From the NCBI GenBank assembly GCA_025934735.1, contig JAICWP010000006.1, forward strand, positions 62,001-126,000: a stretch of 64,000 bases of DNA, in the 5' to 3' direction. Below the pieces are notes generated by a model. It did no database searches. It saw nothing but the letters and a program-made list of their open reading frames with translations, and was not told where the DNA came from. Shown here piece after piece: positions 10,304 to 28,766 of the stretch. Source of the stretch: Terriglobales bacterium (GTDB lineage Bacteria > Acidobacteriota > Terriglobia > Terriglobales > Acidobacteriaceae). Position numbers and translations under genes: made by a program. Every line of letters starts with the position of its first letter. The first letter of the stretch is position 1.

Positions 10304-10342
10304 TGTAGGCCTGTATTTCAAGTTTGAGAACTGGAGGACACA

Positions 10343-11230
10343 ATGAAACGCTCGATCAAGATTATTTTCGTCTCGCTTCTACTGACGGTGGCGGCCTTCG
10401 CCGCAGACTTCAATTTTGCGCAGTTTGATGTGCCTGGGGCTCTTGCCACGAGTCCCTCTGGTGTCAATGCGCGCGGCCAGATCGTCGGCCTGTTCATCGA
10501 TGCTAAGGGCGCCCATGGCTTTCTGAGAAACACCGATGGCACGTATGAACCGATTGACGTCCCCGGCGCCACTTTTACCACCGCCACCAGCATCAATGCG
10601 CGCGGCCAGATCGTTGGACGTTGGACTGACAGCGCTGGCATCAATCACAGCTATGTGCGAACGCGGGACGGCAAGTTCACACTATTTGACCCCGCCAGTC
10701 CTTGCATTGTGGGAGATTCCCCAACCGTGCCGCACGGAATCAACGATGTGGGAGACATGGTCGGAAGGTGCTTCAACGCTAGCGGCAAAGAGCTCGGCTG
10801 GCTATTGCGCCACGATGGGACATTCAGGATTCTCGACGATCCCGCCCAATCAACTACCGACGCATGGCTGGCGACAAACAGAGATCTGATCGTGGGCGAT
10901 TACAGCGACGCCTCAGGGTTAGTCCATGGCTACACCTGGACATCTGATGAAGGCTTCGTCACCCGCGATTTTCCCGGAAGTCAGACGGGCTTGCGCGCGA
11001 TGAACGGACGCGGCCACATCACAGGGATCTACAGCACCGACGGATTCCGACTCCACGGATTCCTGCTGCGCCAAAGCGTCTTTATAACCGTCGACTTTCC
11101 AGACAGCGCTGATAACGGAGGCACTCTGGTTATCAACGATAGTGGATTGATGGTTGGCCCCTACATCGACGCCAGCGGAAACGAACACGGTTTTATGGCG
11201 ATCGAGTGCCCACAATCAGGTTGCCAATAA
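10343..11230 (+). CDS. Exported HAF-repeat protein
   Basis: A 295-residue exported protein made of HAF-type beta-propeller-like repeats. After a signal peptide (MKRSIKIIFVSLLLTVAAFA) it repeats the pattern FDVPGA...INARGQIVG...D..G..HGFLR at least five times, for example SINARGQIVGRWTDSAG and GINDVGDMVGRCFNASG. HAF-repeat proteins are common in acidobacteria and probably extracellular; no enzymatic activity is known. It starts 39 bases after the IPT/TIG gene and is likely co-transcribed with it and with the downstream haloperoxidase-like gene. Confidence 0.8.
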   Translation: MKRSIKIIFVSLLLTVAAFAADFNFAQFDVPGALATSPSGVNARGQIVGLFIDAKGAHGFLRNTDGTYEPIDVPGATFTTATSINARGQIVGRWTDSAGINHSYVRTRDGKFTLFDPASPCIVGDSPTVPHGINDVGDMVGRCFNASGKELGWLLRHDGTFRILDDPAQSTTDAWLATNRDLIVGDYSDASGLVHGYTWTSDEGFVTRDFPGSQTGLRAMNGRGHITGIYSTDGFRLHGFLLRQSVFITVDFPDSADNGGTLVINDSGLMVGPYIDASGNEHGFMAIECPQSGCQ

Positions 11231-11341
11231 TGCCGGCCCTGAACAAAACGATCAGCAGCCACGCGATCAGAACTACATATACGAAACCGGTGTGGATGAC
11301 TCGCAAACGAACATCCTGACAGATAAGGAGTGATTACAGAT

Positions 11342-12586
11342 ATGAAACGCACAGCACTTACCATGGTTACTACTCTGCTGCTGAGTTCGCTGACTGCAAT
11401 AGCGCAGAACCCCATCACGGCCTGGAATGATATTGGCATCACGGCTGCCCGCGCCAGCACAGCGCTGGGATCAGCAACAGCTGGCGGTACGGGGATCTAC
11501 ATGGCGTATGTACATTTAGCTGCCTATAACGCGGTGAATGCCACTGACGGTCGCTTCCAGCCCTACAAGTATTCACTTCCCGTGACCCCGGACGCTTCCG
11601 CCGATGCTGCCGCCATTGAAGCCAGCTACCGCGTGCTGCTCTACCTGCTGCCTGACCAAGCAGCGGTCCTAACTACCCAATATAACAATTCATTGGCCGC
11701 TATCCCCGACGGCGCTCCCAAGACCAAAGGCCAAATTCTCGGTCTGGCTTCAGCCAATGCACTCATTGCGCTACGAGTCGGCGATGGACGCGGCGCCACC
11801 GTTCCTTACACTTTTCCCACCGTTCCGATGCCGGGTGTGTGGATTCTCACTCCAGGCGCTACCGCACCGCAAACGCCCTGGGTCGGGCAGATGCGGCCCT
11901 TTACCTTTGACGATCCCGCCCGGTTCCTACCCGACGAGCCCCCGCCTGACCTGGGCAGTAAGACTTGGGCAGACGATTACAACCAGGTTAAGGCCCTCGG
12001 CGCATTGAACAGCACGGACCGCACCGCGTGGCAGACCGAAGTTGGCCGATTCTGGATGGACCACGGCGCTTCTCAGTATGGCCGCATGTTGCGCGCGATA
12101 GCGGGGCAACGCCAGTTGAGCGTTTCCGACTCGGCGCGTCTCTTCGCCATGTCCTATGCTGCCTATGCCGATAGCTTTGTCGGTTGTATGAACGCAAAAT
12201 ACCACTTCAGTTTCTGGCGACCGGTTACCGCCATCCAAAATGGGGACATTGACGGCAACCCCGATACAGTCGCTGATCCAAACTGGCTGCCTCTGGCTAC
12301 TACCCCCAACCACCCGGAATATCCGGCAGCCCATGGATGCGTGACGGGCGCACTGGCCGAAACGTTAGCAGCCTTCTTCGGCACACCAAATCTTCCGATC
12401 TCGGTGGATAGCACGATCACAGGCACAACTCACACGTTCACGAGCATCCGTGAATGGCAGAAGGAAGTGGAAGTTGCACGTATATATGCCGGCTTTCACT
12501 ACCACCACTCACTCGTGCAGGGATTTGTGCTTGGCCACAAGGTCGCGCACAATTTGGTTACCAATTATTTCAGGCCAGTTCGGTAA
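11342..12586 (+). CDS. Vanadium-haloperoxidase/PAP2-like exported protein
   Basis: A 414-residue exported protein of the vanadium-dependent haloperoxidase / PAP2 phosphatase superfamily. The signal peptide ends near TAIAQ. The vanadate/phosphate site is recognisable: KYHFSFWRP (lysine and RP motif), HPEYPAAHGCVTG in place of PSGH, and ARIYAGFHYHHS with the catalytic Arg and His. PAAHG instead of PSGH is common in bacterial non-canonical members, so halide oxidation is not assured. AAGGAG (about 1323 bases into the eleventh kilobase, 11323-11328) is 13 bases before the ATG at 11342. It ends convergently with the receptor gene at 12609. Confidence 0.85.
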   Translation: MKRTALTMVTTLLLSSLTAIAQNPITAWNDIGITAARASTALGSATAGGTGIYMAYVHLAAYNAVNATDGRFQPYKYSLPVTPDASADAAAIEASYRVLLYLLPDQAAVLTTQYNNSLAAIPDGAPKTKGQILGLASANALIALRVGDGRGATVPYTFPTVPMPGVWILTPGATAPQTPWVGQMRPFTFDDPARFLPDEPPPDLGSKTWADDYNQVKALGALNSTDRTAWQTEVGRFWMDHGASQYGRMLRAIAGQRQLSVSDSARLFAMSYAAYADSFVGCMNAKYHFSFWRPVTAIQNGDIDGNPDTVADPNWLPLATTPNHPEYPAAHGCVTGALAETLAAFFGTPNLPISVDSTITGTTHTFTSIREWQKEVEVARIYAGFHYHHSLVQGFVLGHKVAHNLVTNYFRPVR

Positions 12587-12608
12587 GGGCTTTGCGGGGG
12601 CCTTATTC

Positions 12609-15600
12609 TCAAAATGTAACCTTGATGGCAAGCTCCATAATCCTTGCACCCGAGGAAAAAATCGGAGTACCGAAGGCATTCAGCCCACGGTTCTGTGGGA
12701 ACAGACAAGGAAGAGGGGCAATACCGCAAGCCGACGGGAGGGCAGATACCGTATACTGAACGTTGTTCACGCCCGTGATATTCGAATGATTCAGGGCGTT
12801 GAAGGCTTCCCAGATGACCTGGAGTTTCGCTCGTTCCCCCATGTTGATGTTGCGCGTCAGCCGGGGGTCGAGGGAAACCGATGCCGGCATGTAGAAAGTG
12901 TTGCGGCCCAATCCGGGCGTGCGATCGGTCGCGAAAACACCGTCCTTATTGAGGTCAAAGTTGATCAGGCCGGAGTAGGGCTGTCCGGACTGCGCAGTCA
13001 GAATTCCGCTGAGCTCCCATCCCTGGAGAATTGCACTAGCCGGTCTGGGCAGGCCATGGCCGTAGTTCAGCGCCCACACGGTCCCCAGCGTAAAGCGATG
13101 GCGTTGGTCATTGCTGCCGGGTCCGCGGTCGGAGCGGGGATCCGTCGGGTCCTGAACAAGACCAGAGGCATCGGGTCCTGGATTTAAGGCATAAACGTTG
13201 GGGTTGTTGTCGACCACCTTGGAGAGGGTGTACGACGCCAAGGCCTGGAAATTCCGCGAAAAACGCCGATTCACCTGGATTACCAGTCCGTGATAAATCG
13301 AGTTGGCGTCACTGTTGAAAACCAGAATGCGATCGAACCCTGGGATAGGGCGTGGCTCCTGAAACCTGCGGTAGGTCAAAAGCCTGTTGCTGTCGGCGAC
13401 CGCAATCGTTCCGGGAACGGTATTTCCGAGATTGACATCGCGTATCTGCTGCAGGTGCGTGCCTTTGCTGAAAATGTAGCTGGCGGACACAGTGAGACAT
13501 TTGCTCGCCTGGACTTCCAATCCCAGGCTGCCTTGCTGAACGTAGGGCTGCCGGTAATGGGGGGAGAACAACTGTAGAGTCGGAAGCGCGGCGCCGGCAG
13601 ATGGGGGAGCACAATTCGGAGGCAAGCCAGATGGATCTGGAGGTCCGCAGAAGTTGTTGGGGTAAATCGGGATCAAGGAAGCAAGTGAAGAATCTCCTGC
13701 AAATGTTCTCGTCTGAGTGGTGATCCCGTTCTGATAATGGGCACGAGCAGTAAGGGCCGACGGGGTAAGTGCATAGAAGATTCCATACCCCGTCCGTAAC
13801 ATCAATCGGCTGCTTGCCGCGGGAGACCAAGCCACTCCGATCCGCGGCGCAAAGCTATGCTTGTCGGTTGGCAGCTCGCTCGTATCCAGGCCCGCAGCCA
13901 GTAAGGCCGGGGAAGGATTTCTTAAGGGAGGCTTGGCGATTAACTGCAGGTCATAACGGAGTCCGAGGTTAAGCGTGAGACTCGGCCGAACGCGCCATGC
14001 GTCCTCAACAAAGCCTGCAATGCTGGTGAAGTCAGGATGAGTTACGACGCCATGCTGCCCGACTCCCGAAAAAGCCTGGACATAGACCTCGCCGGGGAGA
14101 GGCTGCGGTTGTCCGCTCAAATTGCGGCCAAAGCTCTCCAGGCTGTTGAAAGTGTAACTTCCGGAAAAGTTTTGTGCGAAAAAAAATTGGATACGATCAA
14201 CCAGAAGGTCCGTCCCAAACTTCAGAGCGTGCGAACCATGGTCATGATGCAGGGTGTCGGCCCACTGCAGTTGGTGAACCGGGCTTTCCTGCGGGCTGGC
14301 TGAAGAACGGCCGATGGTCAGCACCCTTTGGCCGCTCTCATAGATATTAGCCTCTGCATTGACTCCGAGCGGACCAAATCCGCCCGATTCGTGCAGGTAG
14401 CCGAACCTTATGACATTGACGGTGCGGCTTGAGAGCGCAGAGGTGAGCGACACAGCGCCGGTGTCCGCGTTTGTCGGATTGGACATGGTATGCTCGAACG
14501 CGTTTTGCGGATCAATGTCGAGCGCCCCCCCTCCAGTGAATCGCTGCACATCCCAAAACGCGGTCAACCTGTGCTTCTCTGAAACCTGCCAGTCGATCTT
14601 GCCAAGATAATCATTTTGAGATATTGGCCACACCCACGAAGAAGCTCGCGGCCTCAGGTAGTCGAGTGCAATTTGTTGAAAACCCGCAATGGCAGGATCC
14701 GGAGAGAGCTGGAAATCAGGCGGCAGTCTAAGGGAAACAGCGTTGGGGATATTGCTTCGCATGCCTTCATAGTTGACGAAGAAGAATAGCCGGTCTCTCT
14801 GAATCGGACCACCAACGGCGGCGCCAAACTGGTTGAAGTGAAACGGACTTTTCGGCAAACCATAAAGCTTGTTTATGGGATCGTTTGCGTTCATGGATTG
14901 GTCGCGATAAAACCAGAACGCGGAACCGTGAAAATCATTGTTTCCCGATTTCGTCACCGTGTTGACTACGCCCCCACCAGCCCGGCCGAACTCCGCCGAA
15001 TAAGTATTGGAGTTGACCTGAAATTCTCGGACCGCATCTTGGCTGATGGGGTAGGGCTGGCGGCCATCGATGATGAAACCAGACATGGGCTGCCCCCAGA
15101 AGGGGTCGTCATAATTGACGCCATCGAGCAGCAGGGAGTTCATCGCGCGCTGGCCGGCAAAGCTGAGGCCCCCTCGCGCATCCATCGTCACTCCAGGTGT
15201 CAGCAGTACAAATGCTGTGAAATCCCGGCCGTTGACGGGTAAGTCCGAGATAAGGCGATTGTCGATGGTCGTGCTGAGTTGGCTGCGGGTCCTCTCCAGA
15301 ATAGGGGCCTGATCAGTCACGGTCATGGATTCTTTGGCGCTCGCAACGCTGAAGCGCAGCGTAAGTGTCAGGTTCGCGCCGACGCTCAGGTCGATCTTGT
15401 TTACCTGAACCGTGGCGAAACCAGCATGATCCGCCGTCATTTCATACAGGCCTACGGGAAGAACGGCGAAACGGAACATCCCGTGATCGTTCGTCGTAGT
15501 AGAAGCGGCAAATGAAGTACTTAGGTCGCGGACTTCCACGTGAGCGTTCGCAACCACCGCGCCCGAGGCATCGAGCGCAGTGCCTGCAAGCGAAGCTTGA

Positions 15601-15686
15601 TCGCCCGATTGGCCCCAGGAGGATACCCCCGCCAGCAACACCAAGCCGAGCAGGCTTGCTAGTCGGTGTGAATGGCGAAGGCACAT
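12609..15686 (-). CDS. Oar-like TonB-dependent receptor, first of three
   Basis: A 1025-residue outer-membrane receptor. A signal peptide (ending WGQ) is followed by a carboxypeptidase-regulatory-like beta-sandwich (about 30-115: ASLAGTALDASGAVVANAHV), a plug domain (about 125-240, including LPVNGRDFTAFVLLTPGV and EFQVNSNTYSAEFGRAGGG) and a large beta-barrel ending in the aromatic beta-signal IKVTF. It starts 60 bases downstream of the DNA-binding TolB-propeller gene at 15747-17990 on the same strand and is probably in its operon. Oar-like receptors take up large substrates or secrete peptides and proteases; the ligand here is unknown. Confidence 0.92.
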   Translation of the reverse strand: MCLRHSHRLASLLGLVLLAGVSSWGQSGDQASLAGTALDASGAVVANAHVEVRDLSTSFAASTTTNDHGMFRFAVLPVGLYEMTADHAGFATVQVNKIDLSVGANLTLTLRFSVASAKESMTVTDQAPILERTRSQLSTTIDNRLISDLPVNGRDFTAFVLLTPGVTMDARGGLSFAGQRAMNSLLLDGVNYDDPFWGQPMSGFIIDGRQPYPISQDAVREFQVNSNTYSAEFGRAGGGVVNTVTKSGNNDFHGSAFWFYRDQSMNANDPINKLYGLPKSPFHFNQFGAAVGGPIQRDRLFFFVNYEGMRSNIPNAVSLRLPPDFQLSPDPAIAGFQQIALDYLRPRASSWVWPISQNDYLGKIDWQVSEKHRLTAFWDVQRFTGGGALDIDPQNAFEHTMSNPTNADTGAVSLTSALSSRTVNVIRFGYLHESGGFGPLGVNAEANIYESGQRVLTIGRSSASPQESPVHQLQWADTLHHDHGSHALKFGTDLLVDRIQFFFAQNFSGSYTFNSLESFGRNLSGQPQPLPGEVYVQAFSGVGQHGVVTHPDFTSIAGFVEDAWRVRPSLTLNLGLRYDLQLIAKPPLRNPSPALLAAGLDTSELPTDKHSFAPRIGVAWSPAASSRLMLRTGYGIFYALTPSALTARAHYQNGITTQTRTFAGDSSLASLIPIYPNNFCGPPDPSGLPPNCAPPSAGAALPTLQLFSPHYRQPYVQQGSLGLEVQASKCLTVSASYIFSKGTHLQQIRDVNLGNTVPGTIAVADSNRLLTYRRFQEPRPIPGFDRILVFNSDANSIYHGLVIQVNRRFSRNFQALASYTLSKVVDNNPNVYALNPGPDASGLVQDPTDPRSDRGPGSNDQRHRFTLGTVWALNYGHGLPRPASAILQGWELSGILTAQSGQPYSGLINFDLNKDGVFATDRTPGLGRNTFYMPASVSLDPRLTRNINMGERAKLQVIWEAFNALNHSNITGVNNVQYTVSALPSACGIAPLPCLFPQNRGLNAFGTPIFSSGARIMELAIKVTF

Positions 15687-15746
15687 ATTTCCGTCACGAT
15701 GTGGATTCCGAGCAGGCTTTCAGTTTCGGCATACTTCGCGTCCCGA

Positions 15747-17990
15747 CTACTGGAAGTTGTCCACTAGCACAATATCCCTCGTCAAAGCATCGAGTTGGGT
15801 GTAAAGGATGGTTCGACCATCGGGCGATGCTGCCAACCCCGTGGCTTCGCGTGCAGGACGAGTCTCAAGCTCGAACAGGCGAGTTACATGCCCGTTAGCG
15901 AAATCGAGAAAGGCAATCGCCGGTCTTGCAGTGGTGTCGAGGTAATAGATGCCCATTTCGACGACGCCCCAATAGCCCCAGAATTCGGGTTCCACACCGG
16001 GAACAACGAGAGTCTCCTCACCGCCGCTCGTCGGCATACGCCATATACCAGGAATAGCTGGATATTTTGTGTAATAGAGGAATTTTCCGTCCGGTGCTTC
16101 AAAGGCTCCGAAGCCGCCACGTCGCGTTACTTGCACAGCCGGTCCCCCTGTCGAAGGCATCTTCCACACTTCCCACGGGCCACTGCGCGCGGAGGCAAAA
16201 TATATCCAGTGCCCATCTCGTGACCAACTGGGTACGACATCCGCAGACGCCTCATGCGTGAGCTGACGAAGCTGCCCCCCGTGCGAATTCATGACGAAGA
16301 TGTCCGCATTACCGGGAGCTCGAGAGTCGAAGGCGATCTGCTGTCCGTTGGGCGCCCACCGCGGCGTTCCGCTCACGTTATTGAAATGCGTGAGCTGGAC
16401 AAGATTGGTGCCATCACTCCGGCCCATCCAAATCTCATAGCTTCCACTACGGGTCGACTCGAAGGCGATGCTGTTTCCGTCCGGTGAATACTGCGGCCCA
16501 CTTTCGATTGCTGTGGAAGATAGGAAGCGATCGGGGGGGGCCAATGAATATTTCGCATTGAGCTGCTTTCGCCAAATGTTCAGATTACTAACCTGGCGAG
16601 CGTACACCAGGCGGCTTCCCCGGATAGATGGTTCCGTTCCTTCCTGGCCGAATTGCAGCCGTTGCGGCTCTCCGCCCTGAGCAGAAATTTTCCAAAGCCA
16701 ACCAGACGTTGCAAGCCAACCCGCCTTTCCGAAGACGATGTCGCGCCCGTCGGAGGTCCAAGCCAGACCCCATCCAAATTGCGAACCAGTGACCAAACGT
16801 CGCTCCTCCCCTCCCGCAACAGGCTCGGTGTAGATAGAGGTGACGCCTTGCGAACCGCGGTTGAATGCCAGCGTTTGACCATCTGGCGAGAACACTGGGT
16901 TGTAGTCGCCAGGCAGACCCGGCCACGTGATTCTACGTGCCGATAGCGAATAGAGGGACAGCAGGTAGATCGCAGTCGGCTCGTTATCGGACGTGCGATC
17001 AGAAAATGCAAGCAGCTTTCCATCGGGCGACCAAGAGAGGCGACCGAAGTACCAGAAGACCTGATCGAAATCGCGGTTTTCCCAGTGGGTGTCGCGTATC
17101 TTGCGCTCGGCGCCTCCCAATGCAGGAACTATGTAAATACCGCTGTCACCCTTCTCAATGCGACAGAACGCGATGTAGTGTCCATCGGGTGACCAGACTG
17201 GATTGAAGTCGATGGATCGTTGCCGTGTGACACGAAGTGGTTCCTCGTTCCCGATAAGCTTCACATATATGCTGAAGTGCCAGCCGGTTCCGCCATTCCA
17301 GGCGAAGGCTAACTGCTTACCGTCCGGAGACAGGCTGGGGCTGTATTTTTCACCCACGCTGGTAACGACCAGGCTGATGGAGGGCTCGGGCGCTTTAGGC
17401 CTACCCAGAGGACCGGGGTAGAGCAGAAGCAAAGCAATTGTACCCCCGACCACAAGGGCTATTGACAAGACGATGCTTGAAATCCAAAGTCGCTTCGCCC
17501 CTTCTGATCGAGAGACTCTTTCATCTGTAATCGGGGTTGGGACGTCGGTGCGTGCAGGGTGGTGATTACTCGTTTCCCTGACCCACTCAATGGGAACCAG
17601 GAAGCGATACCCGACTTTCGGCACTGTCTCGATGAACTTGGGATTTTGGACTGAGTCTTCCAGTGCCTTGCGCAGCTTTTTCACAGCCGTGTTGACGCTG
17701 TGCTCGAAATCAACGAAGGTCTCTTCCGGCCAGAGAGCGGCCCTTAGCTCCTCACGCGAAACAACTCTTCCCTCTGCCTCCAGCAAGAGCCGGAGAACCT
17801 GAAGCGGCTGTTGCTGTATACGCACGGAGCTTCCGCTTCCGCCACGGAGTTCCCCCGTGGCCAGATCGAGCTGAAATTGGCCAAAGGAAGCACGAGCCGG
17901 AAGCAAGCGGTAGGTGGCCACCCCAAAAATCCTCACTGCGATGGTGCCCGAATTGTACCGCAGGCGAAATGTCGGTCGCGCCCAGTACAA
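15747..17990 (-). CDS. Membrane-anchored winged-helix regulator with TolB-like propeller
   Basis: A 747-residue CadC/ToxR-like one-component regulator. The OmpR-type winged helix spans about residues 36-135 (FGQFQLDLATGELRGG, VVSREELRAALWPEETFVDF, NTAVKKLRKAL, IETVPKVGYRF). A single membrane helix lies at about 167-192. The rest is a TolB/WD40-like (PD40) propeller with repeated blades such as SPSLSPDGKQLAFAW, NPVWSPDGHYIAFCR and TPRWAPNGQQIAFDSRAPG. The propeller is predicted to be periplasmic. The gene is directly upstream of a TonB receptor. I infer that it senses a periplasmic signal and controls that receptor; only the architecture is visible. The exact start is uncertain. Confidence 0.88.
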   Translation of the reverse strand: MYWARPTFRLRYNSGTIAVRIFGVATYRLLPARASFGQFQLDLATGELRGGSGSSVRIQQQPLQVLRLLLEAEGRVVSREELRAALWPEETFVDFEHSVNTAVKKLRKALEDSVQNPKFIETVPKVGYRFLVPIEWVRETSNHHPARTDVPTPITDERVSRSEGAKRLWISSIVLSIALVVGGTIALLLLYPGPLGRPKAPEPSISLVVTSVGEKYSPSLSPDGKQLAFAWNGGTGWHFSIYVKLIGNEEPLRVTRQRSIDFNPVWSPDGHYIAFCRIEKGDSGIYIVPALGGAERKIRDTHWENRDFDQVFWYFGRLSWSPDGKLLAFSDRTSDNEPTAIYLLSLYSLSARRITWPGLPGDYNPVFSPDGQTLAFNRGSQGVTSIYTEPVAGGEERRLVTGSQFGWGLAWTSDGRDIVFGKAGWLATSGWLWKISAQGGEPQRLQFGQEGTEPSIRGSRLVYARQVSNLNIWRKQLNAKYSLAPPDRFLSSTAIESGPQYSPDGNSIAFESTRSGSYEIWMGRSDGTNLVQLTHFNNVSGTPRWAPNGQQIAFDSRAPGNADIFVMNSHGGQLRQLTHEASADVVPSWSRDGHWIYFASARSGPWEVWKMPSTGGPAVQVTRRGGFGAFEAPDGKFLYYTKYPAIPGIWRMPTSGGEETLVVPGVEPEFWGYWGVVEMGIYYLDTTARPAIAFLDFANGHVTRLFELETRPAREATGLAASPDGRTILYTQLDALTRDIVLVDNFQ

Positions 17991-18174
17991 ACAGACCAGA
18001 TGACGTAAGCCCTTGGGGCATCAGCTACTTGCGTGCTTTCACCTTTATTTCACCGTCGGGTCACCTGCTGTGCATTGCGACCGACAGCAAAAGTCGTACA
18101 GTTTGCCCATTGCACAGGGGGTGAGCAGCGTCGGAGACGCGATCACCGATTTCAATTGTTGAGAGGTCAAACCA

Positions 18175-18651
18175 ATGAACACGTCGATGAGTAGGATTTT
18201 GGCTGTCTGCGTTGTCTTAGTTCTCGGGCTGCCGGTCATGGCCCAGTCGGCAAGCCGGAATGATGCTGGCAGCCGATGCTCGAACCAAACTCTCTCCGGT
18301 AATTATGGAGCACAGATTGAGGGCACGGAGTACATTCCAAACGATTCGAATCCGCCGATGAAGGTGGATCTCAGAACGGTATCAATGGGCTACTTTAATG
18401 GTGCTGGAAATGTATCTTTTCGCGACCACATCATTTTTAACGGCACCCCCCCTCCCGAAGAAGGCGATCAGTGGCGAGAGGCGAGCGGAACTTATGAGGT
18501 GAATCCGGATTGCACCGGAAAATTCACCGTCGACACAGTTCCCGGCTTTCCGCCGATTGTCGTGTATTTTGTCGTAGTGAAACGCGGGACGGAAATACAC
18601 GGAGTGACGAACGGCAGTGCGATCACCTACAGCGCGTATAAAGTCAACTAG
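18175..18651 (+). CDS. Small exported protein of unknown function
   Basis: A 158-residue protein with a clear signal peptide (ILAVCVVLVLGLPVMAQ). The mature part has the pattern CSNQTLSGNYGAQIEGTEY, MGYFNGAGNVSFRD, SGTYEVNPDCTGKFTV and HGVTNGSA. This looks like a small antiparallel beta-barrel with a Cys pair, of a kind often seen as hypothetical secreted proteins in acidobacteria. GAGAGG lies nine bases before the ATG. It stands alone, followed by the IS element. I do not recognise a function. Confidence 0.75.
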   Translation: MNTSMSRILAVCVVLVLGLPVMAQSASRNDAGSRCSNQTLSGNYGAQIEGTEYIPNDSNPPMKVDLRTVSMGYFNGAGNVSFRDHIIFNGTPPPEEGDQWREASGTYEVNPDCTGKFTVDTVPGFPPIVVYFVVVKRGTEIHGVTNGSAITYSAYKVN

Positions 18652-18683
18652 GTCGCAGGTAGACCACACGCCAGATTTCCTTA

Positions 18684-19634
18684 AACCCTGTAACAAAACC
18701 GTTGCTGCAACCTAGCTGAAAGTTGGAAAATCCACTTATTCGAGGGGGAGAGTTTTCATGCCTGCCACACTTCTTTCTCCTGCCCTATGGGATTTGATTG
18801 AACCACTTCTCCCAGCCTCGCCGCCCAAGCCTCAAGGTGGCAGACCCCGTATATCAAACCGTGCTTGCCTCACGGGCATCTTGTTCGTCCTCCAAAGCGG
18901 GATCCCGTGGCGGATGCTGCCGCAGGAAATGGGCTGTGGCTCCGGCATGACATGTTGGCGGTGCTTGCGGGATTGGCAGCAGATCGGAATTTGGGGCCTG
19001 ATCCACTTCGCACTCGTGAACTGGTTATCCCACTACGGCGAAATTGATTGGTCGCGGGCGGTGGTGGATAGCTGTTCCGTGCGAGCGGTTTTTGGGGGCC
19101 CACAGACCGGTCCCAATCCAACGGACAGAGCCAAACCTGGTAGCAAGCGTCACCTGATCTGCGATGGACAGGGCGTGCCACTCGTACTCCATTTGACGGC
19201 GGCTAACCGGAACGATTCGCAGGAAGCTCTACCGCTGGTCGATGCGCTTCCGCCATTGCAGGGCGAAAGAGGACGGCCGCGGCGCCGCCCAGACTGTCTC
19301 TGGGGCGATCGAGGATACGATGCCGAGGCGATCCGGCAAGGTCTACGCACTCGACGCATCTCGCCTTTGTTAGCGAAGCGTAACACGAAGCATGGCAGTG
19401 GGTTGGGTCGCTTGCGTTGGGTGGTCGAGCGGACCTTTGCATGGCTTAACCAGTTTCGCCGTCTACGCATCAGATATGAGAAGCGGGCAGACATGCACGA
19501 GTCATTCCTGAGCCTTGGCTGTGCAATGATTTGCTGGCGCTTCTTAGCTGCCAGAACCGCTGGGCATGTGACGACTGGGGCAGGAGAGCAAATGAAGAAA
19601 CTCCGATTCGAGTCGGAACAGTACGTGAATCTCA
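18684..19634 (+). mobile_element. IS5-family-like insertion sequence, right end not recognisable
   Basis: The element consists of a left end (cctgtaacaaaacc at 18687-18700, after TTA), a short leader and one transposase gene. The expected inverse right end (ggttttgttacagg) is absent before the stop of the receptor gene at 19635. The right boundary is therefore only bracketed: after the last conserved transposase motif (about 19550) and before 19635. Probably an old, one-ended, immobile copy. Confidence 0.65.
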
Positions 19635-19645
19635 TTAGAAGATGA
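18758..19645 (+). CDS. IS5-family DDE transposase
   Basis: A 295-residue single-frame transposase of the IS5 superfamily (DUF4096/DDE). The N-terminal DNA-binding part includes [21 protein letters not shown] and [13 protein letters not shown]. The catalytic triad appears as [15 protein letters not shown] and [21 protein letters not shown]. After the usual terminal motif ([11 protein letters not shown]) the frame continues about 33 residues and overlaps the last codons of the convergent receptor gene by 11 bases. I infer that the natural stop was lost, so the tail is not transposase. The catalytic region itself is intact. Confidence 0.88.
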
Positions 19646-22600
19646 ACTTCAAACCCAGCTGCAGGATACGCGAACGGTGGGCTGAATTGGGGTGCAGGAA
19701 GTTGCTCTCAGCGATGCAGTTCGGATCACCGGCAGAATTAGACGACCCCCCGTAGCAACTCATTCCACTGTTAACGAATGCCCACTGGGTGTGGTTGAAG
19801 ATATTGAAAGCCTCGGCGCGGACCTCGAACCATTTGACTTCCGAAACAGCAAAACGCTTGAACAGTGCCATATCGAAGTTGGTCCGTTGTGGATTACGAA
19901 GGAAATTGCGGCCCGAATCGCCAAAGGTCAGACCACGGGGCGCCGCGAAAGCAGCGGGATTGAAGAGCAGCGGCGCTGGTATGCCCTCCGCGAACTTGGC
20001 GGGAGGCGGTGACTTTGGATCGCCAATCAAATCGGCGTAGGTTCCGATTCCAAATTGGTTACCCACCCCAGCGTTGTCAGCGTAGGTTGCGGCATTCACT
20101 ACGCTGAAAGGCGTTCCCGTCTGGAAGGTGGCGATGCCAGAGAACTGCCAAGCACCTAAGAGTTTGAAAATAGTGCCCGGTCGCCTAAAGAAAGGCAGGT
20201 CGTAGATGTAACCTACGTTCAGGATGTGACGCTGGTCAAAGCCCCCGCTGGCACGATTCGAACGGAAGTTGTAGGAATCCACAAAATTGTTGTCGCCGCG
20301 ACCTGACAGATTATCAATGGCATGACTGTAGGTGTATGCGACACTGAATTGCAGCGCGCCTATGCTTCGCCGCAAAGATGCTTCTAAGGCATGGTAGGTG
20401 GAGCTGGCTGTTTCTTCCAGCCGCAGTATTGACCCGTAACCGACAAAGGGACGGAACGGATTGGGATCGGCACGGCAAGCAACTGCCAAATGGAGAGCGG
20501 CGTCGCCCGTCACAGCGACACCGCTCGGTGTGGTCATGGTGCCGCAGTCGTCGTGCTGGCCGTCGATGCCTCCAATCGGCTCTCCTGGTTTGTAGGGGTT
20601 TAAGGAAAGCGGAAGCGCGGGAATCTGATTGAGATCGCGCTGAAGAGTTAGATGAGTGCCCTGGCTACCCACATAAGCGACAGTGAGCACGGATTTCGCC
20701 ACCAGTTCGCGCTGCACGTCCAAATGCCATTGCTGTACATAGGGCCAGACAGCCTGGTTGGGAATGGACGTGACATCAACGGGGAAATAAAGCGGACTGG
20801 CTCCTGGATTGTTGCCCATGCCGATGTTCTCGTATCCCAGGATATTCAATTGTGCAGCCGACAGTACCAGGGGGGGCGCTCCTTCCAAAGACTCAGTATT
20901 GGCCTCATTTCCATTGGTGTGCTCGTAGAAGATGCCATAGCCACCGCGAATCGCCATCTTTCCCGTACCGACTGGATCATAAGCAAAACCAATCCGCGGC
21001 GCGGGATTGAACTGATGCCCTTTCATGCAGCCCGCAGGGATGCCACCGATTCTGCACTGAACCATGCCCGTGATGTTGTTGATATTGTTTCCTGGCGGGA
21101 ATATCAGTGCACCCGTTGCGGGATCAATTGAAGGCGCAGCGGTGCGGTCGTAAGCGTTAGGATCGAAGTTGTAAGCCTGATAATAGCGCTCCCGATAGGT
21201 GCCGAAAAGACTTACGCGCAAGCCGAGATTCAGGGTCAGGTGACTATTGACCCGCCAGTCATCCTGAAAGTAAGGCTCGAGGATTTTGTATTGATTGTAG
21301 TACTTGACCTGACGGCTGGTTTGAGCAAAGGCAAAGATCCGGCCGGTCAGCAAATCGGCGAATGGGTTGCCAGTTGAGTTTTGTGAAGAAGCATCGAAAG
21401 AAAGGGATCCCTGAAGGGAGGCGAAATTGGGCTCATTTTTTTGAGCACTTACCGCATAAGCTCCCAGATGAAGGTTGTGCCGGGCCTCAATTTTGCTGAG
21501 GTTGTCGCGATAGGTGTAAGTAGGGTTGGCGTTTGCCCAAGGCGCGAATCCGAGATCCACTCCGAACCCACCATTGTAGGCCGAACTGCCACCCAGGCCA
21601 AAGCCGGGCAGCTTGCCTCCAAAACCATTTTGAAACAGAGCGCCAAAGGTCCCGCCCGGTGGCCGCTGCCATGCGCCCAGATTGGCACTGGAAAAATGGT
21701 CAGTCGTGTAGCTGAATACAAATTCATTGAGCGCAGTACTGGATAGGTTCGCGGTGAGACGCGCCACCAGGCTGACACCAGGTACGTTGATCTCGTTCTG
21801 AACCGTCGGAAAACTTGCGCCGCTGCCATAGAAGGGAAAGGGGAAAACACTATCCAACAAATCGTGAGTGTAGCGAAACATAGCGCGCAGCCTGGAGCTG
21901 AAATTGTGGTCCAGGCGTAGTGACTCCTCTCGCCAATTCAAAGGCACAGGTGGGTTAGCCGTGTACGTTTCGGCGCCGGGTCTGCCCCCGTTGGGCAGCG
22001 GAATTAGAGGCAACAGGAATTGCGCGTTGAACGCCACATGTACTTGGTTGTTCGGAAACCGAGCGCCGGTCGTCGGATCGCTTGGGCAGTCAGCAAAGGA
22101 ATTGGTCAGGACATTAGGGCACATATCGGAGAAGCTCCCCTTGCGCTCCTCCAACGACGGGACCTGAGCAAAAAACGGAAAACTGTTGGGTACATGCTCT
22201 TTCCGCCACTCCTGTGACCAGAAAAAGAAGCTTTTGTCCCTTTTCGTGTTGTAAACGCCAGGTATAGAGATCGGTCCGCCGATGGTGTAACCGAAATCAT
22301 GTTTTTTATAGGTAGGCGCTGGGTCGGACGGATCAAAGTAGTTGCGCGCGTTGAACATATCATTGCGCAGAAACTCGTAAATGTCGCCGTGAAATGTGCT
22401 CGTCCCAGATTTGGTTTCAACTTCTATCGTTCCCGAGCCGTTGCGCCCGTACTGTGCTCCGTAATTAGACGTGAGCACGCGGACCTCGGAGATGGCGTCG
22501 ATGCTGGGAGTGATGTTCAGGCTGACGTTGCTTCCATTGTCCAGAATGTCGCCGCCATCTAATTCCCAGTTGTTGTACTCGAGGCGACCGCCGTTGATAC

Positions 22601-23135
22601 TAAATCCCGGGAATCCGATTCCCTGGTCCTCAAGGCTCTGGCTACTCACGCCAGGTACTAGCGTGATCAGTTGCGTGAAATCGCGACCGTTTAGCTGGAG
22701 CTGTGTAACCTCCCTTCCGGTTATGGTTCCCGCAAGCTCGGATGATTGTGTCTCCACCTGGGCAACGTCTTCACCCGATACCGTGATTTTGGCGGTAGCC
22801 ATACCGACGGGCAGTATGGCGTCGGCGCGTGCTTTCTGCGCCACGCGGAGAACGATGCTTTTTGCCTCGTACCTCCTGAAACCAGCTGCCGTGATCGTAA
22901 GGTCATAGGGCGCAGGCGGCAGTCCGGGGACCAGGTACTCACCAGCAGTATTCGTGACTGTAACTCGGTGAACGCCGTTGCCTACGTTTGTGACGCTGAC
23001 CTGGGCGTCGGTGATAACTGCGCCGGTGTCATCCGTTACCGTCCCAGTGAGAGACGCGGTGTCTTGTCCTAGGAGGTTGGGCGAGATTGCCAGCACGAGA
23101 AGGAAGATGCCCAGCGGAAGTCTGCGGGACTGCAT
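19635..23135 (-). CDS. Oar-like TonB-dependent receptor, second of three
   Basis: A 1166-residue outer-membrane receptor of the same family as those at 12609 and 46147. Order: signal peptide; carboxypeptidase-regulatory-like domain ([33 protein letters not shown]); plug ([39 protein letters not shown]); long barrel ending LQLGLKFIF with the terminal aromatic. By eye it is much closer to the third receptor (46147-49749) than to the first: [13 protein letters not shown] matches ELDGGDNMDNGSN. It begins 47 bases after the stop of the winged-helix/kinase gene, pointing to an operon. The IS element abuts its 3' end without cutting it. Confidence 0.92.
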
Positions 23136-23182
23136 ACACGCTCCCGATTTAGAACAACCTATACACCTAAGGAGGGCCGGGG

Positions 23183-26100
23183 CTACGGCCAGTCCATTTC
23201 GAGCGCATAGATTTCTGTGCTGCTGATATCGCGAGCGAACAAAGGAGAATCATCGGGCGCAAGTCCGAACCAGTCCACGAACGTTCCCGTGGTCACGCGT
23301 CCGACATTCTTAATATCAACCATGTTTTCAATCTTCCGATCGCTTAGCCGAAGACGGACAATACGGTCAGACTTATGCTTATCCTGGAAATAGATGTGCT
23401 TTCCATCGTGGGACCAGTGCAAGTAGCCGATTTCAGAGCCGAACGGTTCCGTCCACTTCTGAGTGACAAAGTCAAAAAGCATCAACTTCGACGCTACGTC
23501 CGTTGTAATGGCGGCAACATACCTGCCATCCGGCGACCAACGAGGGGAAAACAGTCCAACGGATCCCGGCAAGGGGGAAACGCGCTTGGAGCCGAGATCG
23601 AGTGTGGAAATCGGGGAGGCCGGGTCACCGGCACTGCCGAAGATCAGCGACCTTCCGTCCGGTGACCAATTCACATCCATCTGGCTCTTTTCACTGGGGA
23701 GTAAACGCTGGGGTGTGCCACCTTCGCTCGAGACCAGGTAGACGTTCCAGGTCTCACCGGGGCGCATGGCATTAAAGGCAATTTGTTTACCGTCCGGCGA
23801 CCAGCGCGGCAAAAGGACCCGCAAAGGTGGAAAGGTAAGCTGACGCCGCTCACTTCCGTCCATTTTGCTTCGCCATAGCGTACCATCAGGGTAGGAACTG
23901 TAAGTAACCCATCGCCCATCTTGTGAAAATGCCAAGCCCTCAGCGGAGATTCCGGAAAGATAGGGCACAAACTCCCTGCTGCGTGAGTCATAACGGATTA
24001 CTTCAGCTTGACGGGAACTACCGATGGCGAAGATCTGCTTGCCATCTTTACTCGGCAAAGGATATTGAAAGTCCAGTGGGCCCGCAGTCAACTGGATTGG
24101 CTTATCCTTTCGGTTCCACCAAGCGACCCTCGCTTCCGGCAAAGCCCAGATATCCAGTCTGAGATTGATTCTGTTCTGAAAAAGGAAAAACCGTCCGTCT
24201 GGAGTCCACGTACCGTGCCCTCCCTCAAACATGGGGTGGGGTTTCGTCCCGTCCGCTGCGGCTTCGACAATGGTCCAAGAATCGGTTTGGAAATCGTTCT
24301 GCGTGAACCGAAACACCGTGGCGTCTGGCGAAAAACGAAAGTCGAATGGAACGTTGGTTGCCGTAAGGAGTTTTTGAGGGGAAGTGCCGTCCCGGTCCAC
24401 TGAGTAGACGTCATTCCCTATCCCGTAGATGATGCTGGTTCCGTCCACCCCGAACGCCGCGTTTTCGGCGCGGATCGCCCCGATGCGCCTTGGGGACCCC
24501 CCCGCCACTGGCTGCAGCCAAAGCGGGCCCGGTCTAATTCCGTCGTCACTCGTGATTAGAAGGTCGGTTCCATCTTGCGTAAGATCAAAAAACCCAGGGT
24601 TCTTGAGTGGCACCAGAAGGGGAGCGCCTTCTCCACCGTGGATGGACACCTGAAAGATGAGAGCGCGCTGACCCGGCAACATCTCGTTGAAATAGATTCG
24701 CGAACCATCGGTAGCTATTGGACCATCTTTGGCTTGGCCGTCATTGGTCAGCTTTGTGAAGTGCAGGACTTTGGGCGCCCTTGGAACTCGGATCACCGTC
24801 AGCCATAAGGCCAGCGCCGCAACGGCGACGATAACCGCGCCAAGTATCGCCGGCCCGTAATACCTATGTCTTCCCTTGTCTGTCCCGGCGACGGATAGTG
24901 TGGGCCGAGCAATAACGGCGGTACCCTGCCCGTCGATAGTTCCGTCACGAGGGAAAGCTCCTTCCAGGCCAGCGGGCGAAACACGCGCGCCACGTCCGGA
25001 ATCCGTGTCCCGCCTGAACCGCTTCAAGTCGGCGCGCATTTCCGAAGCGCTTTGATAGCGGAGGTGGCGGTCTTTCTCCAGCGCCTTGGCGATGATTTCT
25101 TCGAGCTTTGTCGGCAATTCGGGGTTGAGACGAAGCGGTGAGGCAGGTGTGCGGTTCAGAATCGCATCGTGGATCGCGGCAGTTGTGGACCCTGCAAAAG
25201 CCTGCCGGCCGGTCGCCATTTCGTAGAGCACTGCGCCCAGGCTGAACAAGTCGGTGCGTGCATCAACGTTTTCACCCAGCGCTTGTTCGGGAGACATATA
25301 CGCGACCGTGCCCATCGCCACGCCCAGGAGGGTGAGGTGTTCGTCGTCCTCGTTAGCGGTGCCCATAGCCGCCGCACCCATAGCTCCGGCCATCTTTGCG
25401 AGGATTATCTTGGCCAAGCCGAAGTCCAGAATCTTGGCTTCGCCACGCTGGGTAATAAAGATATTGGCCGGTTTGATATCACGATGGATGATGCCCTGCT
25501 GATGCGCCGCCTCTAACCCCTCCGCCACTTGCATGGCGAGATCGAGCAACTCAGCGCAGGCTAGGGGTGTGCCTTCGGCGATGCGCTCTCGCAGTGTTTG
25601 CCCTTCCAGTAGTTCCATTACGATGAAGGGTTGTGATTCATGCTCTTCGACCTCGTAGATGGTGCAGATGTTGGGATGATTCAGCGACGAGGCGGCGCGG
25701 GCCTCGCGCTCAAAACGTTCGAGCGCCACAGGGTCCGTGACCAACTCTTCGGGTAGGAACTTCAGGGCAACGCGACGGCCCAGCTTGATGTCTTCAGCTT
25801 TGTAGACGACCCCCCTGCCGCCGCCGCCCAACACCTTCAAAACGCGGTAGTGCGAAACCTTCCTGCCGATCAGGTTTTCGCTGGCAGGTGCCTCGGGGAG
25901 CGCAATGACGAAGGGGAGCCCTTTCGGGGGTGCCTCCCGCCACTCAACCGGCACTTTCCAGCGATAGCCTCGGCGCGCAAGGGTCTCGATATAGTGAGGA
26001 CTATCGGCGGAATCGCCCAGCGCCTGACGCACTCGGTTCATCGCCGCGCTGATGCTGTGCTCAAACTCGACGATCGTATCGTTGGGCCAGAGTCGCTGGC

Positions 26101-26287
26101 GCAGCTCCTCCCGGGTTACCACCTCGCCCGGGCGCTCCAGCAACATGACAAGGATTCGGAAAGGCTGCTCAGGCAAGCGGAGGGCCTTCCCTCCATTCTG
26201 GCGCAGCTCCCCGGCAGGAACATCAAGCTCGAAGTCCCCGAAGATAACTACCGTATGGGGTACTTTGGCTTTCGGCACTTCACACAC
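23183..26287 (-). CDS. Winged-helix DNA-binding / Ser-Thr kinase / TolB-propeller fusion
   Basis: A 1034-residue protein with four parts. An OmpR-type winged helix spans about 14-115 (FGDFELDVPAGELRQNG, VVTREELRQRLWPNDTIVEF, LARRGYRWKVPVEW). A Hanks-type kinase spans about 145-430: glycine loop GGGGRG (154-159), VALK lysine 176, HRDIKPAN (268), DFG (288-290), SPEQ. One membrane helix lies at about 478-500. A TolB-like propeller (505-1034) has blades such as PRWSPDGKQIAFNAM and PRWSPDGRYVAAI. It could bind DNA, phosphorylate proteins and sense the periplasm in one chain. It sits 47 bases upstream of a TonB receptor. All catalytic residues are present. Confidence 0.92.
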   Translation of the reverse strand: MCEVPKAKVPHTVVIFGDFELDVPAGELRQNGGKALRLPEQPFRILVMLLERPGEVVTREELRQRLWPNDTIVEFEHSISAAMNRVRQALGDSADSPHYIETLARRGYRWKVPVEWREAPPKGLPFVIALPEAPASENLIGRKVSHYRVLKVLGGGGRGVVYKAEDIKLGRRVALKFLPEELVTDPVALERFEREARAASSLNHPNICTIYEVEEHESQPFIVMELLEGQTLRERIAEGTPLACAELLDLAMQVAEGLEAAHQQGIIHRDIKPANIFITQRGEAKILDFGLAKIILAKMAGAMGAAAMGTANEDDEHLTLLGVAMGTVAYMSPEQALGENVDARTDLFSLGAVLYEMATGRQAFAGSTTAAIHDAILNRTPASPLRLNPELPTKLEEIIAKALEKDRHLRYQSASEMRADLKRFRRDTDSGRGARVSPAGLEGAFPRDGTIDGQGTAVIARPTLSVAGTDKGRHRYYGPAILGAVIVAVAALALWLTVIRVPRAPKVLHFTKLTNDGQAKDGPIATDGSRIYFNEMLPGQRALIFQVSIHGGEGAPLLVPLKNPGFFDLTQDGTDLLITSDDGIRPGPLWLQPVAGGSPRRIGAIRAENAAFGVDGTSIIYGIGNDVYSVDRDGTSPQKLLTATNVPFDFRFSPDATVFRFTQNDFQTDSWTIVEAAADGTKPHPMFEGGHGTWTPDGRFFLFQNRINLRLDIWALPEARVAWWNRKDKPIQLTAGPLDFQYPLPSKDGKQIFAIGSSRQAEVIRYDSRSREFVPYLSGISAEGLAFSQDGRWVTYSSYPDGTLWRSKMDGSERRQLTFPPLRVLLPRWSPDGKQIAFNAMRPGETWNVYLVSSEGGTPQRLLPSEKSQMDVNWSPDGRSLIFGSAGDPASPISTLDLGSKRVSPLPGSVGLFSPRWSPDGRYVAAITTDVASKLMLFDFVTQKWTEPFGSEIGYLHWSHDGKHIYFQDKHKSDRIVRLRLSDRKIENMVDIKNVGRVTTGTFVDWFGLAPDDSPLFARDISSTEIYALEMDWP

Positions 26288-26509
26288 CCCAAGTCTGCCG
26301 GGATTTTACCACCTTGTTGAGGCTGCACAGGCATTTCCTCGCCTGCCGCGGAAACTCTGAGGCCCGACGATCACACCGATAAGTCTCTGAAAGCAAACGA
26401 CCTCGTGCAGTGACCCGGATATGACCTAATCGTGAACTGCCTTGCATTGAGGGGGCAGCCGTTCTGACTCAGGGTTGGCGTCACCACGCAACTCGCGGAG
26501 GTGACCGCC

Positions 26510-27382
26510 ATGAAAACTCTATGCCGATTCTGCATTGTGCTATCCGTTATTGTCCTCACGAGCCGAAATTTAACTGCCAAACGCCAGCCGCAAGCGCACC
26601 CAATTGAGAGCAGGAGCGGAATTCCCTTCAAGGTATACGGAAACTACCTGGTCGTAATTGAGGGCCGCATTGGAGATCGGGGCAAACTCAGGTTTGTGGT
26701 GGATACCGGTGTAACCCACAGTGTCATCGATCGCAAACTGGCTGGCAGGATGGGTGTCGCGCGTCGTTCGGGGAAAGTGCTCAATTTCGATAAGACCATC
26801 CCCGCCGAGTGGGCCGAAGTTGCCGAGGTACAATTTGGGCCCATCGACGTGGCTCATTTCTCCATGATGGTCGGCGATCTCCGGTATTTTCAGTCCTTCG
26901 CTACCAAGGTCGATGCAGTGATCGGGCTGGACCTTCTGCGCTTAAGCAGCTTCAGCATCGATTACGACGTGAGAAAAATCTTCTTTGGTCCGGTGAACAG
27001 GGCTTCTGGCGTTCCCATGAACTCTGATCCCCTCTGCCTGAGCGTGCAGTTGGCTGTGGGAGACGGCTGGCTTCGGTTTGTGGTTGACACCGGAGCACAG
27101 GCCTTGGTTCTTTACGAGGAGCGTGTTTTAGGCCGCATAGGGCAGTTCAGCATTGCAGGTGAAACTGATGGCTCCAGTGTGGGAGGCTATGTACACGCAA
27201 AACGTGCAACCCTCGCGAGAGTGCGCTTGGGCACAACGGACTTGGACAAAGCGGCGTTCCTAGTGAAGGCACCACCCGAGAACATCTTGCCCGGCATCGA
27301 TGGCTATTTTGGAACCGGTACATTGAAAGCACGGCGGATCGATTTCAATTTTGAGACCAACACGTTAGCCTGGGAAAGATGA
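26510..27382 (+). CDS. Exported aspartic protease-like protein with two DTG sites
   Basis: A 290-residue exported protein with two retropepsin-like halves. The first half carries LRFVVDTGVTHSVID (DTG 65-67) and closes with VIGLDLL; the second carries LRFVVDTGAQALVLY (DTG 193-195) and IDGYFGTGTL. Retropepsin-like bacterial proteins usually have one such half and dimerise; here one chain could form the whole active site, as in pepsins. The ATG at 26510 follows GGAGGTG by six bases. The signal sequence ends near LTAKR. It is transcribed away from the kinase fusion gene. Substrate unknown; proteolysis is not proven. Confidence 0.82.
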   Translation: MKTLCRFCIVLSVIVLTSRNLTAKRQPQAHPIESRSGIPFKVYGNYLVVIEGRIGDRGKLRFVVDTGVTHSVIDRKLAGRMGVARRSGKVLNFDKTIPAEWAEVAEVQFGPIDVAHFSMMVGDLRYFQSFATKVDAVIGLDLLRLSSFSIDYDVRKIFFGPVNRASGVPMNSDPLCLSVQLAVGDGWLRFVVDTGAQALVLYEERVLGRIGQFSIAGETDGSSVGGYVHAKRATLARVRLGTTDLDKAAFLVKAPPENILPGIDGYFGTGTLKARRIDFNFETNTLAWER

Positions 27383-28163
27383 AATGCGGTTCCCTGGTCT
27401 GAGCTGTTAGGTACCATTTCGCGTCCGCCAAGTGCGATGCAACATACCCAAGCGTCCACGTGCCGGTTCCAGTAAACGTGGCGTGTCGTTCCTGGCACAT
27501 CATTAGTCCGATGCCAGGCGACCATCAACCTACATCATCCTGCTCTGCGGGGCTGGAGGCCCTTCTTGTGCCGAGAGGTTTTACAAGCTCTTAGTAGCCG
27601 GAAAACTGGGCAATTCTTCCACGTTGCTGTCTGACCGACTTCGGGCCCGAATTCTTCACGTGTTGCACTGTCTCTATTGCAAAACCATCCGACTGCGATT
27701 GCTGTTGCATATCATCAGCAAGGGGCGCCAACGAACTTTTTGTTGTCAGTTTCCCGATTGCCCGTCACCCGTTCAGAGGGACTGTGTTTCCCAACCAGGG
27801 AAAAGTTGACTTCAGGCGGGCACATCGTCTAAATGACGGATCTACTCTGGTCATGTCTCACTTCCAAATCCTCTGAAGCTTCCAGATGCTGCCCGTCACC
27901 GCGACCGGCTTACCACTCTCAGAGAAGAGCACAAGTCTACTTTTATCAGAACTACCGAAGACCAGATTCGTCATCGCAATCGTGCCATGCTGCGCATAGG
28001 CCTCTATTGACGAGCGGTCGACAATGACTTTGAGATCGTAAGCGATTTTCGGACAATGGGGCGGTCGTCTTCGTTGGGAAGTCTGCACTAATTACGCGAC
28101 CCGATTTGATTGAGCGTGTGCAGATGAGGGTCTGCCGAACCTCGTACAATCATTGATTCCGGT
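27383..28163. other. Decayed intergenic region
   Basis: About 0.8 kb with no intact gene. It contains the frameshifted GH32 tail (27858-28149). A segment near 27747-27772 resembles 2664-2689 in the other decayed stretch. The left part (27383-27850) shows nothing else I can name. Confidence 0.5.
27858..28149 (-). pseudogene. GH32 (fructanase/invertase-like) C-terminal fragment, frameshifted
   Basis: The minus strand encodes the end of a glycoside hydrolase family 32 beta-sandwich. LKVIVDRSSIEAYAQHG, TIAMTNLVF and SIWKLQRIWK then stop match the family's hallmark LRVFVDRSSVEVF...TDLVFP...SIDVWELK end. The preceding part, KSGRVISADFPTKTTAPLSEN, lies in another frame, so a frameshift falls around 28050-28080. 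Nothing of the catalytic five-blade propeller is present upstream; the fragment stops where the element-end repeat begins (about 28164). No function is expected. Confidence 0.75.
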
Positions 28164-28308
28164 GTGATGAAATTGTGATAATTCTCGGCTCAAAACGGGT
28201 CAAATCAGGACAGAATGGATCAGACCATCAGATTTGTAGGCGGTTGAGGAATCAAGTAGAGTAGGAAATTTTCATAACCCGTCAGGGTCCCCGTGAGTTC
28301 TTCAAAAC
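28164..28308 (+). repeat. Element-end repeat, copy 2, abutting tRNA-Sec 3' half
   Basis: Homologous to 2110-2256, offset by 26053-26054 bases with almost no gaps. It contains the identical block tagagtaggaaattttca (28257-28274). It ends inside the anticodon loop of the tRNA-Sec fragment that starts at about 28300. I read it as the conserved end of an integrative element whose crossover site was the tRNA anticodon loop. Confidence 0.65.
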
Positions 28309-28365
28309 CGGCGGGAGGCGGGTTTGCCCGTCTTCGGTGGGTTCGACTCCCACTCGCTTCCGCCA
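28300..28365 (+). tRNA. tRNA-Sec 3' half (5' half missing)
   Basis: The sequence matches a selenocysteine tRNA from the anticodon loop onward. The anticodon loop is CTTCAAA with TCA at 28302-28304, followed by the 3' stem strand ACCGG. A long variable arm follows (aggcggg, loop tttg, cccgtctt; about 7 pairs), then a perfect 5-base-pair T stem GTGGG/CCCAC with loop TTCGACT, an 8-base acceptor strand TCGCTTCC, then GCCA. Eight acceptor plus five T-stem pairs is the bacterial tRNA-Sec layout. Upstream there is no matching CCGGT stem strand, no D arm and no GGAAGCGA acceptor strand; element DNA is there instead. It cannot be a functional gene as it stands. Confidence 0.75.
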
Positions 28366-28766
28366 ACTACACGCGGGGGCCTTCGCCTGCGGCTCAGGAT
28401 TTCGCCTGCGGGCTCCCGCTTCGCTCACGCCCGCAAAACGGCTCAAGTTCGAATCCCGCTCGCTTCCCCCAACTCCTGTAGGAACTCCCTCCTTGGAGCG
28501 GGATTGCGGTAGCACGAACCGATGACGGGCCCGGGTTCGGGACATACGTCTGCACCAGTGCTCCCACTTTCACTGCAACTGTCTCCAAACTTGGATACGC
28601 TCAGCTGGTAGCGCAATGGCCCGGACGGATGCCGGTTATCAAACTTGCTATTGCTGTTATCACTCATTTCAGCTTGTCTTAAGGTGGACGGTCTCATCGC
28701 GCGACAGGAATAACGGGCTCGACTGCCCGGTTCGTGTCATTAGCACTCTTTATTGACGGAGGAAGC
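28366..28766. other. Intergenic stretch with palindromes, second tRNA end and OmpA-gene leader
   Basis: Between the two tRNA-end fragments lie G+C-rich inverted words (cgcctgcgggctcccgcttcgctcacgcccgc region). After the second fragment nothing is recognisable until the GGAGGA ribosome-binding site of the OmpA-family gene at 28758-28763. The promoter of that gene should lie in 28480-28750, but I cannot place its boxes. Confidence 0.45.
28447..28472 (+). repeat. Second tRNA T-arm/acceptor fragment
   Basis: The string ttcgaatcccgctcgcttcc, followed by cccaact, repeats the end of the tRNA-Sec half at 28342-28368 (ttcgactcccactcgcttcc, gccaact) with four or so differences. The 5' strand of the T stem is absent. 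It looks like the end of an earlier or related tRNA-Sec copy, left by repeated integration. Confidence 0.5.

Follow-up and report, generated by a model that had tools for sequence, protein, structure and literature searches.

The half tRNA-Sec gene and its intact counterpart

Why does the 3' half of a tRNA-Sec gene stand without its 5' half in an acidobacterial chromosome? The window, i.e. the whole stretch of 64,000 nucleotides that was analysed, is C8:62001-126000 of a 4.94 Mb draft genome in 50 contigs, and a window position is the C8 position minus 62000. The sequence-only reading had taken the half to be the displaced att end of an integrative element lying to its left, and had suggested looking farther left for an intact tRNA-Sec. 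Such a gene was found by ARAGORN and with the Rfam model RF01852, 1.44 kb left of the window:

C8:60465-60562, intact tRNA-Sec (RF01852 70.6 bits, cut-off 47; ARAGORN, tRNA-Sec TCA)
28299..28365, + strand, displaced tRNA-Sec 3' part from the anticodon loop to CCA, read as attR (67 bp, 67/67 identity with C8:60496-60562)

The half (TCTTCAAAACCGGCGGGAGGCGGGTTTGCCCGTCTTCGGTGGGTTCGACTCCCACTCGCTTCCGCCA) starts at 28299, not at 28300 as first given, and opens with TCTTCAAAACC, i.e. at the anticodon loop, in agreement with the crossover point that had been proposed. The DNA immediately 5' of it is element DNA and not tRNA. The tRNA gene has not been lost, given the complete copy farther left. By itself the half was called neither by ARAGORN nor at the Rfam gathering level, and at relaxed Rfam thresholds it matched by its T arm only, to tmRNA. 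Its identity as tRNA-Sec is therefore based on the 67/67 match to the intact gene and not on a model score. The genome also carries selB (351.5 bits, cut-off 242), therefore Sec decoding is plausible.

In a 50-contig draft, two copies of one sequence could be an assembly artefact or a chance duplication. However, both copies are within one 255 kb contig and the architecture of the right end recurs in 44 genomes, which makes this explanation barely credible.

The island between the two copies

The two 67-bp copies enclose an island of 29,736 bp (C8:60563-90298), with the same integrase-arm-like direct repeat, TGTGATRAAAWTGTGATAA, at both ends; the element predicted to the left of the half is therefore present. 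Its limits are given by the following features:

1..28298, no strand, island portion inside the window (direct-repeat ends and GC contrast); the left end is 1.44 kb left of the window and adjoins the intact tRNA-Sec
28163..28181, + strand, arm-like pair TGTGATGAAATTGTGATAA with an 11-bp period, right end, about 118 bp left of the half
C8:60635-60653, partner arm pair TGTGATAAAAATGTGATAA, 73 bp right of the intact tRNA-Sec

When up to two mismatches were allowed, the arm pair was found at just two sites in the 4.94 Mb genome, one at each island end, and the reversed-pattern control gave none. By rough arithmetic, a sequence within two mismatches of the left arm would turn up by chance in the 300 bp next to the half with a probability of about 2e-6. 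Two direct repeats at 11-bp spacing have the look of the arm-type sites of tyrosine integrases, and could be bound in the same way. The two parts of the island have a GC content of 54.6% and 55.9%, compared with 60.8% and 60.4% in the 20-kb flanks.

The half is most probably (at roughly 0.87) the attR of an island that crossed over in the anticodon loop of tRNA-Sec and rebuilt the gene, that is now free of a recombinase, and that belongs to a family sharing a conserved right end (R-end). In the proposed order of events, a circular element would have recombined, by a reaction like that of a tyrosine recombinase, with the anticodon loop of the genome's one tRNA-Sec gene. It would have brought its own tRNA 3' part, making the left junction (attL) a complete and presumably working tRNA-Sec, and the original 3' part of the chromosomal gene would have been displaced 29.7 kb rightward as attR. 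The arm-like repeats at both ends would be where the recombinase docks.

The island carries the following genes and sites:

182..1864, + strand, amidohydrolase (Amidohydro_3), cargo (Pfam)
2105..2255, + strand, internal R-end, arms of the TGTAGT type, closing loop similar to that of tRNA-Ser(TGA), GTTCTTGAAAAC (nhmmer E 3e-24; 96.6 bits with the R-end model R1)
2944..4737, + strand, amidohydrolase (Amidohydro_3), cargo (Pfam)
6136..8760, - strand, Ser/Thr kinase with TPR repeats, cargo (Pfam)
8757..9395, - strand, ECF sigma factor, cargo (Pfam)
12609..15686, - strand, outer-membrane beta-barrel protein with CarboxypepD_reg domain, cargo (Pfam)
18758..19645, + strand, IS4/5-family transposase within the island (Pfam DDE_Tnp_1, DUF4096)
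23183..26287, - strand, DNA-binding domain, Ser/Thr kinase and PD40 repeats, cargo (Pfam)
26501..27382, + strand, aspartyl-protease-like protein, cargo (Pfam)
27858..28088, - strand, GH32 glycosidase fragment, C-terminal part only, on the inner side of the right end (Pfam Glyco_hydro_32C, positions 104-157 of 158)

The internal R-end splits the island into units of 3.7 kb and 26 kb. The island is therefore composite, and entry of all 29.7 kb in one step is not established. The GH32 scrap beside the right end suggests deletion or decay there. No transfer genes were found among the Pfam-scanned island ORFs, several of which had no match, small ORFs lying outside the scan. A recent duplication was considered for two equally long membrane-protein ORFs of the window and was rejected, as only a 403-bp stretch is alike, at 77%.

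Search for an integrase

An integrase gene had been expected after the intact tRNA-Sec, and this expectation failed. None was found there or anywhere in the 29.7 kb: all matches of a genome-wide PF00589 search were outside the island, the Pfam scan of island ORFs gave no tyrosine recombinase, and tblastn with 22 integrase sequences gave no relic. The tyrosine integrase that would mark an autonomous anticodon-loop island was thus not found in this one. With neither an integrase nor a relic inside, the island is best filed as a cis-mobilizable element (CIME). A cargo-only island of this kind, if mobile at present, would depend on a recombinase from another element for its movement.

Another explanation is that the island is autonomous and that its recombinase is of a family missed by our searches. 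These used Pfam and local integrase profiles only, and several island ORFs are without a Pfam match. Nevertheless, the lack of both PF00589 matches and relics argues against it, as does the finding that contigs with R-ends have no gene in common beyond widespread kinases and membrane proteins, so we regard this explanation as improbable.

The chromosomal flank

Downstream of the half, the chromosome carries one further relevant feature:

28392..28476, + strand, REP-like chromosomal flank with a degenerate tRNA tail at its end, 28449-28476 (blastn to the tRNA-Sec downstream regions of genomes G017, G054, G049 and G003)

Flank synteny is not kept among the relatives in the collection, and neither an empty site between the same flanks nor one in the same genus was found there. 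The REP-like flank, on the other hand, resembles sequence that lies directly behind intact tRNA-Sec in relatives, 18-30 bp after the gene in G017 and G054, and also after tRNA-Sec in G049 and G003. This is expected if the flank once directly followed the reported tRNA-Sec, bearing in mind that such sequence may follow other tRNAs too.

The flank also raises the possibility that the half is no attachment site: REP-like tandem arrays could multiply tRNA tails downstream of tRNA genes, and the half would be one of their units. Units of 152 bp stand behind an intact tRNA-Sec in G049, every one with a tRNA-Sec 3' part that also starts with CTTCAAAACCGG, and the degenerate tail at 28449-28476 could be a similar copy in the window. 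However, the half is preceded by a conserved R-end and an arm pair rather than by REP-like sequence, and it is 29.7 kb away from the intact gene. An array unit is thus a very unlikely origin, and attR of an island is the preferred reading.

REP-like arrays behind tRNA-Sec were seen at L066:18500-19000 (G049), L074 (G003), L088 and L095. Their units hold copies of the tRNA 3' end, which begin at the anticodon loop in the 152-bp units of G049 and at the T loop in G003.

A family of right ends

The right end of the island is conserved beyond this genome:

28157..28311, + strand, conserved right end (R-end), attP-arm-like, closing in the anticodon-loop core (model R1, own copy 104.5 bits; about 155 bp)
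28242..28279, + strand, most conserved block of the R-end, GGTTGAGGAATCAAGTAGAGTAGGAAATTTTCATAACC (pattern search, 398 genomes)

At up to three mismatches the block was present in 12 copies in 9 of the 398 genomes sampled from the same taxonomic family, and the reversed control gave none. The model R1, a sequence-only model of the R-end made from 17 copies, matched in 44 of these 398 genomes. When 396 genomes were drawn from the whole phylum, an R-end was found in only two, this genome and another of the same family. No R-ends were found in phage and plasmid collections by blastn, and viral contigs gave no exact match to the R-end core. The R-end is conserved in other genera; in G003 the layout of the right end is as in the reported island and the block between arm and half is kept. 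The left end was found in the reported genome and G108 only, where a tRNA-Sec half with the same start point has a left-type arm behind it, at a similar distance. In G108 (L079 and L080, G108:C56) a tRNA-Sec half with a left-type arm stands without a 5' half, and the next gene is NACHT-type-like, as judged by eye.

The family uses the anticodon loops of Sec, Leu, Ser, Met and Arg tRNAs and stacks in tandem, in one acidobacterial family. We read 69 distinct R-end copies and assigned their tRNA identities by eye. The closing loops were CTTCAAAACCGG for the Sec type, CTCAAAATCCGC and CTTAAAAACCGC for Leu, CTTGAAAACC and TTGCTAAACCG for Ser, CTCATAATCC for Met and TTTTCCTAAACC for Arg, and the arm sequence varies with the tRNA type. 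The tRNA 3' end was complete (T arm, acceptor strand and CCA) behind 12 of 64 R-ends, compared with 3 of 2320 control windows. These tRNA 3' ends are independent evidence because that stretch is outside the model, whereas the loop match lies inside it and is not.

Tandem R-ends occur at 14 examined loci besides the reported one. The units between them include one of 3.2 kb with a single kinase gene (817 aa) in G464, one of 1.7 kb with a GmrSD-type nuclease gene in two pieces in G437, one of 2.0 kb with two genes without assignment in G005, and one of 1.5 kb with a metallophosphatase gene (470 aa) in G282. Inner sequence of 5 kb or more was available for 38 R-ends; 36 had no integrase there and two had an integrase or a fragment of one, as judged with a profile made from local examples, which unusual recombinases could escape.

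These units could point to an integron-like system, in which small cassettes are swapped through R-ends by a recombinase encoded elsewhere. Some tandem R-ends do enclose just one or two genes (the kinase, the split GmrSD-type nuclease, the metallophosphatase), and only 2 of 38 R-ends have an integrase within 5 kb on their inner side. On the other hand, no attC-like fold was found, with z near 0 for the reported R-end (0.07 and -0.01) and for L137 (0.24 and 0.17); the reported island consists of 26 and 3.7 kb, and decaying ordinary islands would look alike. Cassette exchange is an unlikely explanation. It is equally doubtful whether many tRNA anticodon loops in this bacterial family serve as anchors for stacks of small units that lack a recombinase, have a conserved 155-bp right end in common and are swapped by recombinases encoded elsewhere. 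Such a system would be integron-like in working and use duplex attP-type sites. In the folding test, the internal R-end copy alone folded better than its shuffles.

Several Sec-type R-ends are without a tRNA half (L146:3516, L193:1197, L196, L200, L204:367 and L218:15144) and have non-tRNA sequence of up to about 180 bp in common past the core, which is perhaps the left end of the neighbouring unit. On the reverse strand of L225 (1130-1260, G282:C93), a tRNA-Ser(TGA) that looks intact has the arm pair TGTAGTAAAACTGTAGTAG directly against its 5' end, and a full Ser-type R-end lies upstream of the pair.

Comparison with known systems

Williams reportedly described tRNA-gene genomic islands with anticodon-centred attachment sites in 2002. 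In the selC islands of E. coli the tRNA-Sec gene is the target as it is here, but the crossover is near the 3' end and integrases are carried.

The break at the loop is less unusual than had been implied. Tyrosine integrases use three tRNA subsites, the anticodon loop among them (PMC8371274), and in Islander anticodon-centred sites account for 2083 islands and sites in the T-stem region for 1836 (PMC4383910). Crossover in the anticodon loop is thus a common, known class. Islands of this class resemble the reported one in the tRNA gene regenerated at one end, the displaced 3' fragment at the other and the crossover in the loop, but differ in that no integrase was found here. The island is ordinary in kind, and the integrase-poor R-end family is the interesting part.

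CIMEs keep attL and attR and have lost their integration and transfer genes, and tandems formed by accretion are known (PMC5704250). Their origin and their mobilization are ascribed to a related ICE or IME that has the same att specificity. The reported island also retains attL and attR with no integration gene found, and its R-end family has tandem neighbours, but no related mobile element with a cognate recombinase was found here, and cis-mobilization is putative. In Dehalococcoides, islands are arranged in tandem at one RNA gene, ssrA, with a 20-bp repeat, and 15 ssrA islands are without integration modules (PMC3146451). The R-end family is similar in standing in tandem at RNA genes, a number of its members without an integration module. 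The difference is that ssrA is the single target in Dehalococcoides, whereas here several tRNA genes are used at the anticodon loop, with a 67-bp repeat and a 155-bp right end. Integron cassettes resemble some R-end contigs in that recurring sites enclose one or two genes in a unit without an integrase, and differ from the family in attC folding, the tRNA-gene anchor and the large size of the reported unit. Tycheposons have a tRNA border, a tyrosine recombinase and cargo, and no recombinase was found here.

In the literature searched, which was scant for subscription journals, no description of the right-end family was found, nor any paper that combines selC, the anticodon loop and an integrase. 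An oddity in a draft genome has become an exact island map with both ends, a regenerated tRNA-Sec and arm-like sites, and tRNA-Sec joins the anticodon-loop targets seen in this analysis. With the 155-bp signature as a query, searches could reach integrase-poor islands, which would escape island finders that rely on integrases. Should the small tandem units turn out to be exchangeable, these hard-to-culture bacteria would have a cassette system with tRNA genes as its anchor.

Candidate recombinases

The cognate recombinase of the R-end family was not identified among the integrases examined, and the reported genome has no L191-type gene and one distant L096-type homolog only. Integrases of the L096 type are directly after intact tRNA-Sec at seven loci and were considered as the cognate enzyme. 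Six of their islands were traced to the far ends (G037, G244, G222, G147, G121 and G048), where the displaced fragment is 23-35 bp and starts in or near the T loop. The break here is in the anticodon loop with 67 bp, which places the L096-type islands in another class, and the candidate was rejected.

The tyrosine integrases of L231-L260 are 56-100% identical to L096 and have their stop codon just past the CCA of tRNA-Sec, Ser, Lys, Val or Asn. In the traced cases the displaced fragment lies farther inside the contig, often behind a motif like ACGTTTNAGGCGGATTCGA.

Integrases of the L191 type begin some 60-130 bp behind an intact tRNA-Ser or Leu, with similar repeat pairs between, and are candidate cognate recombinases. 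A second integrase family (L283-L300) was observed to start a short way behind intact tRNA-Ser or Leu and to point away from the gene, often with GGTGATACCTACACTGATACC repeats between.
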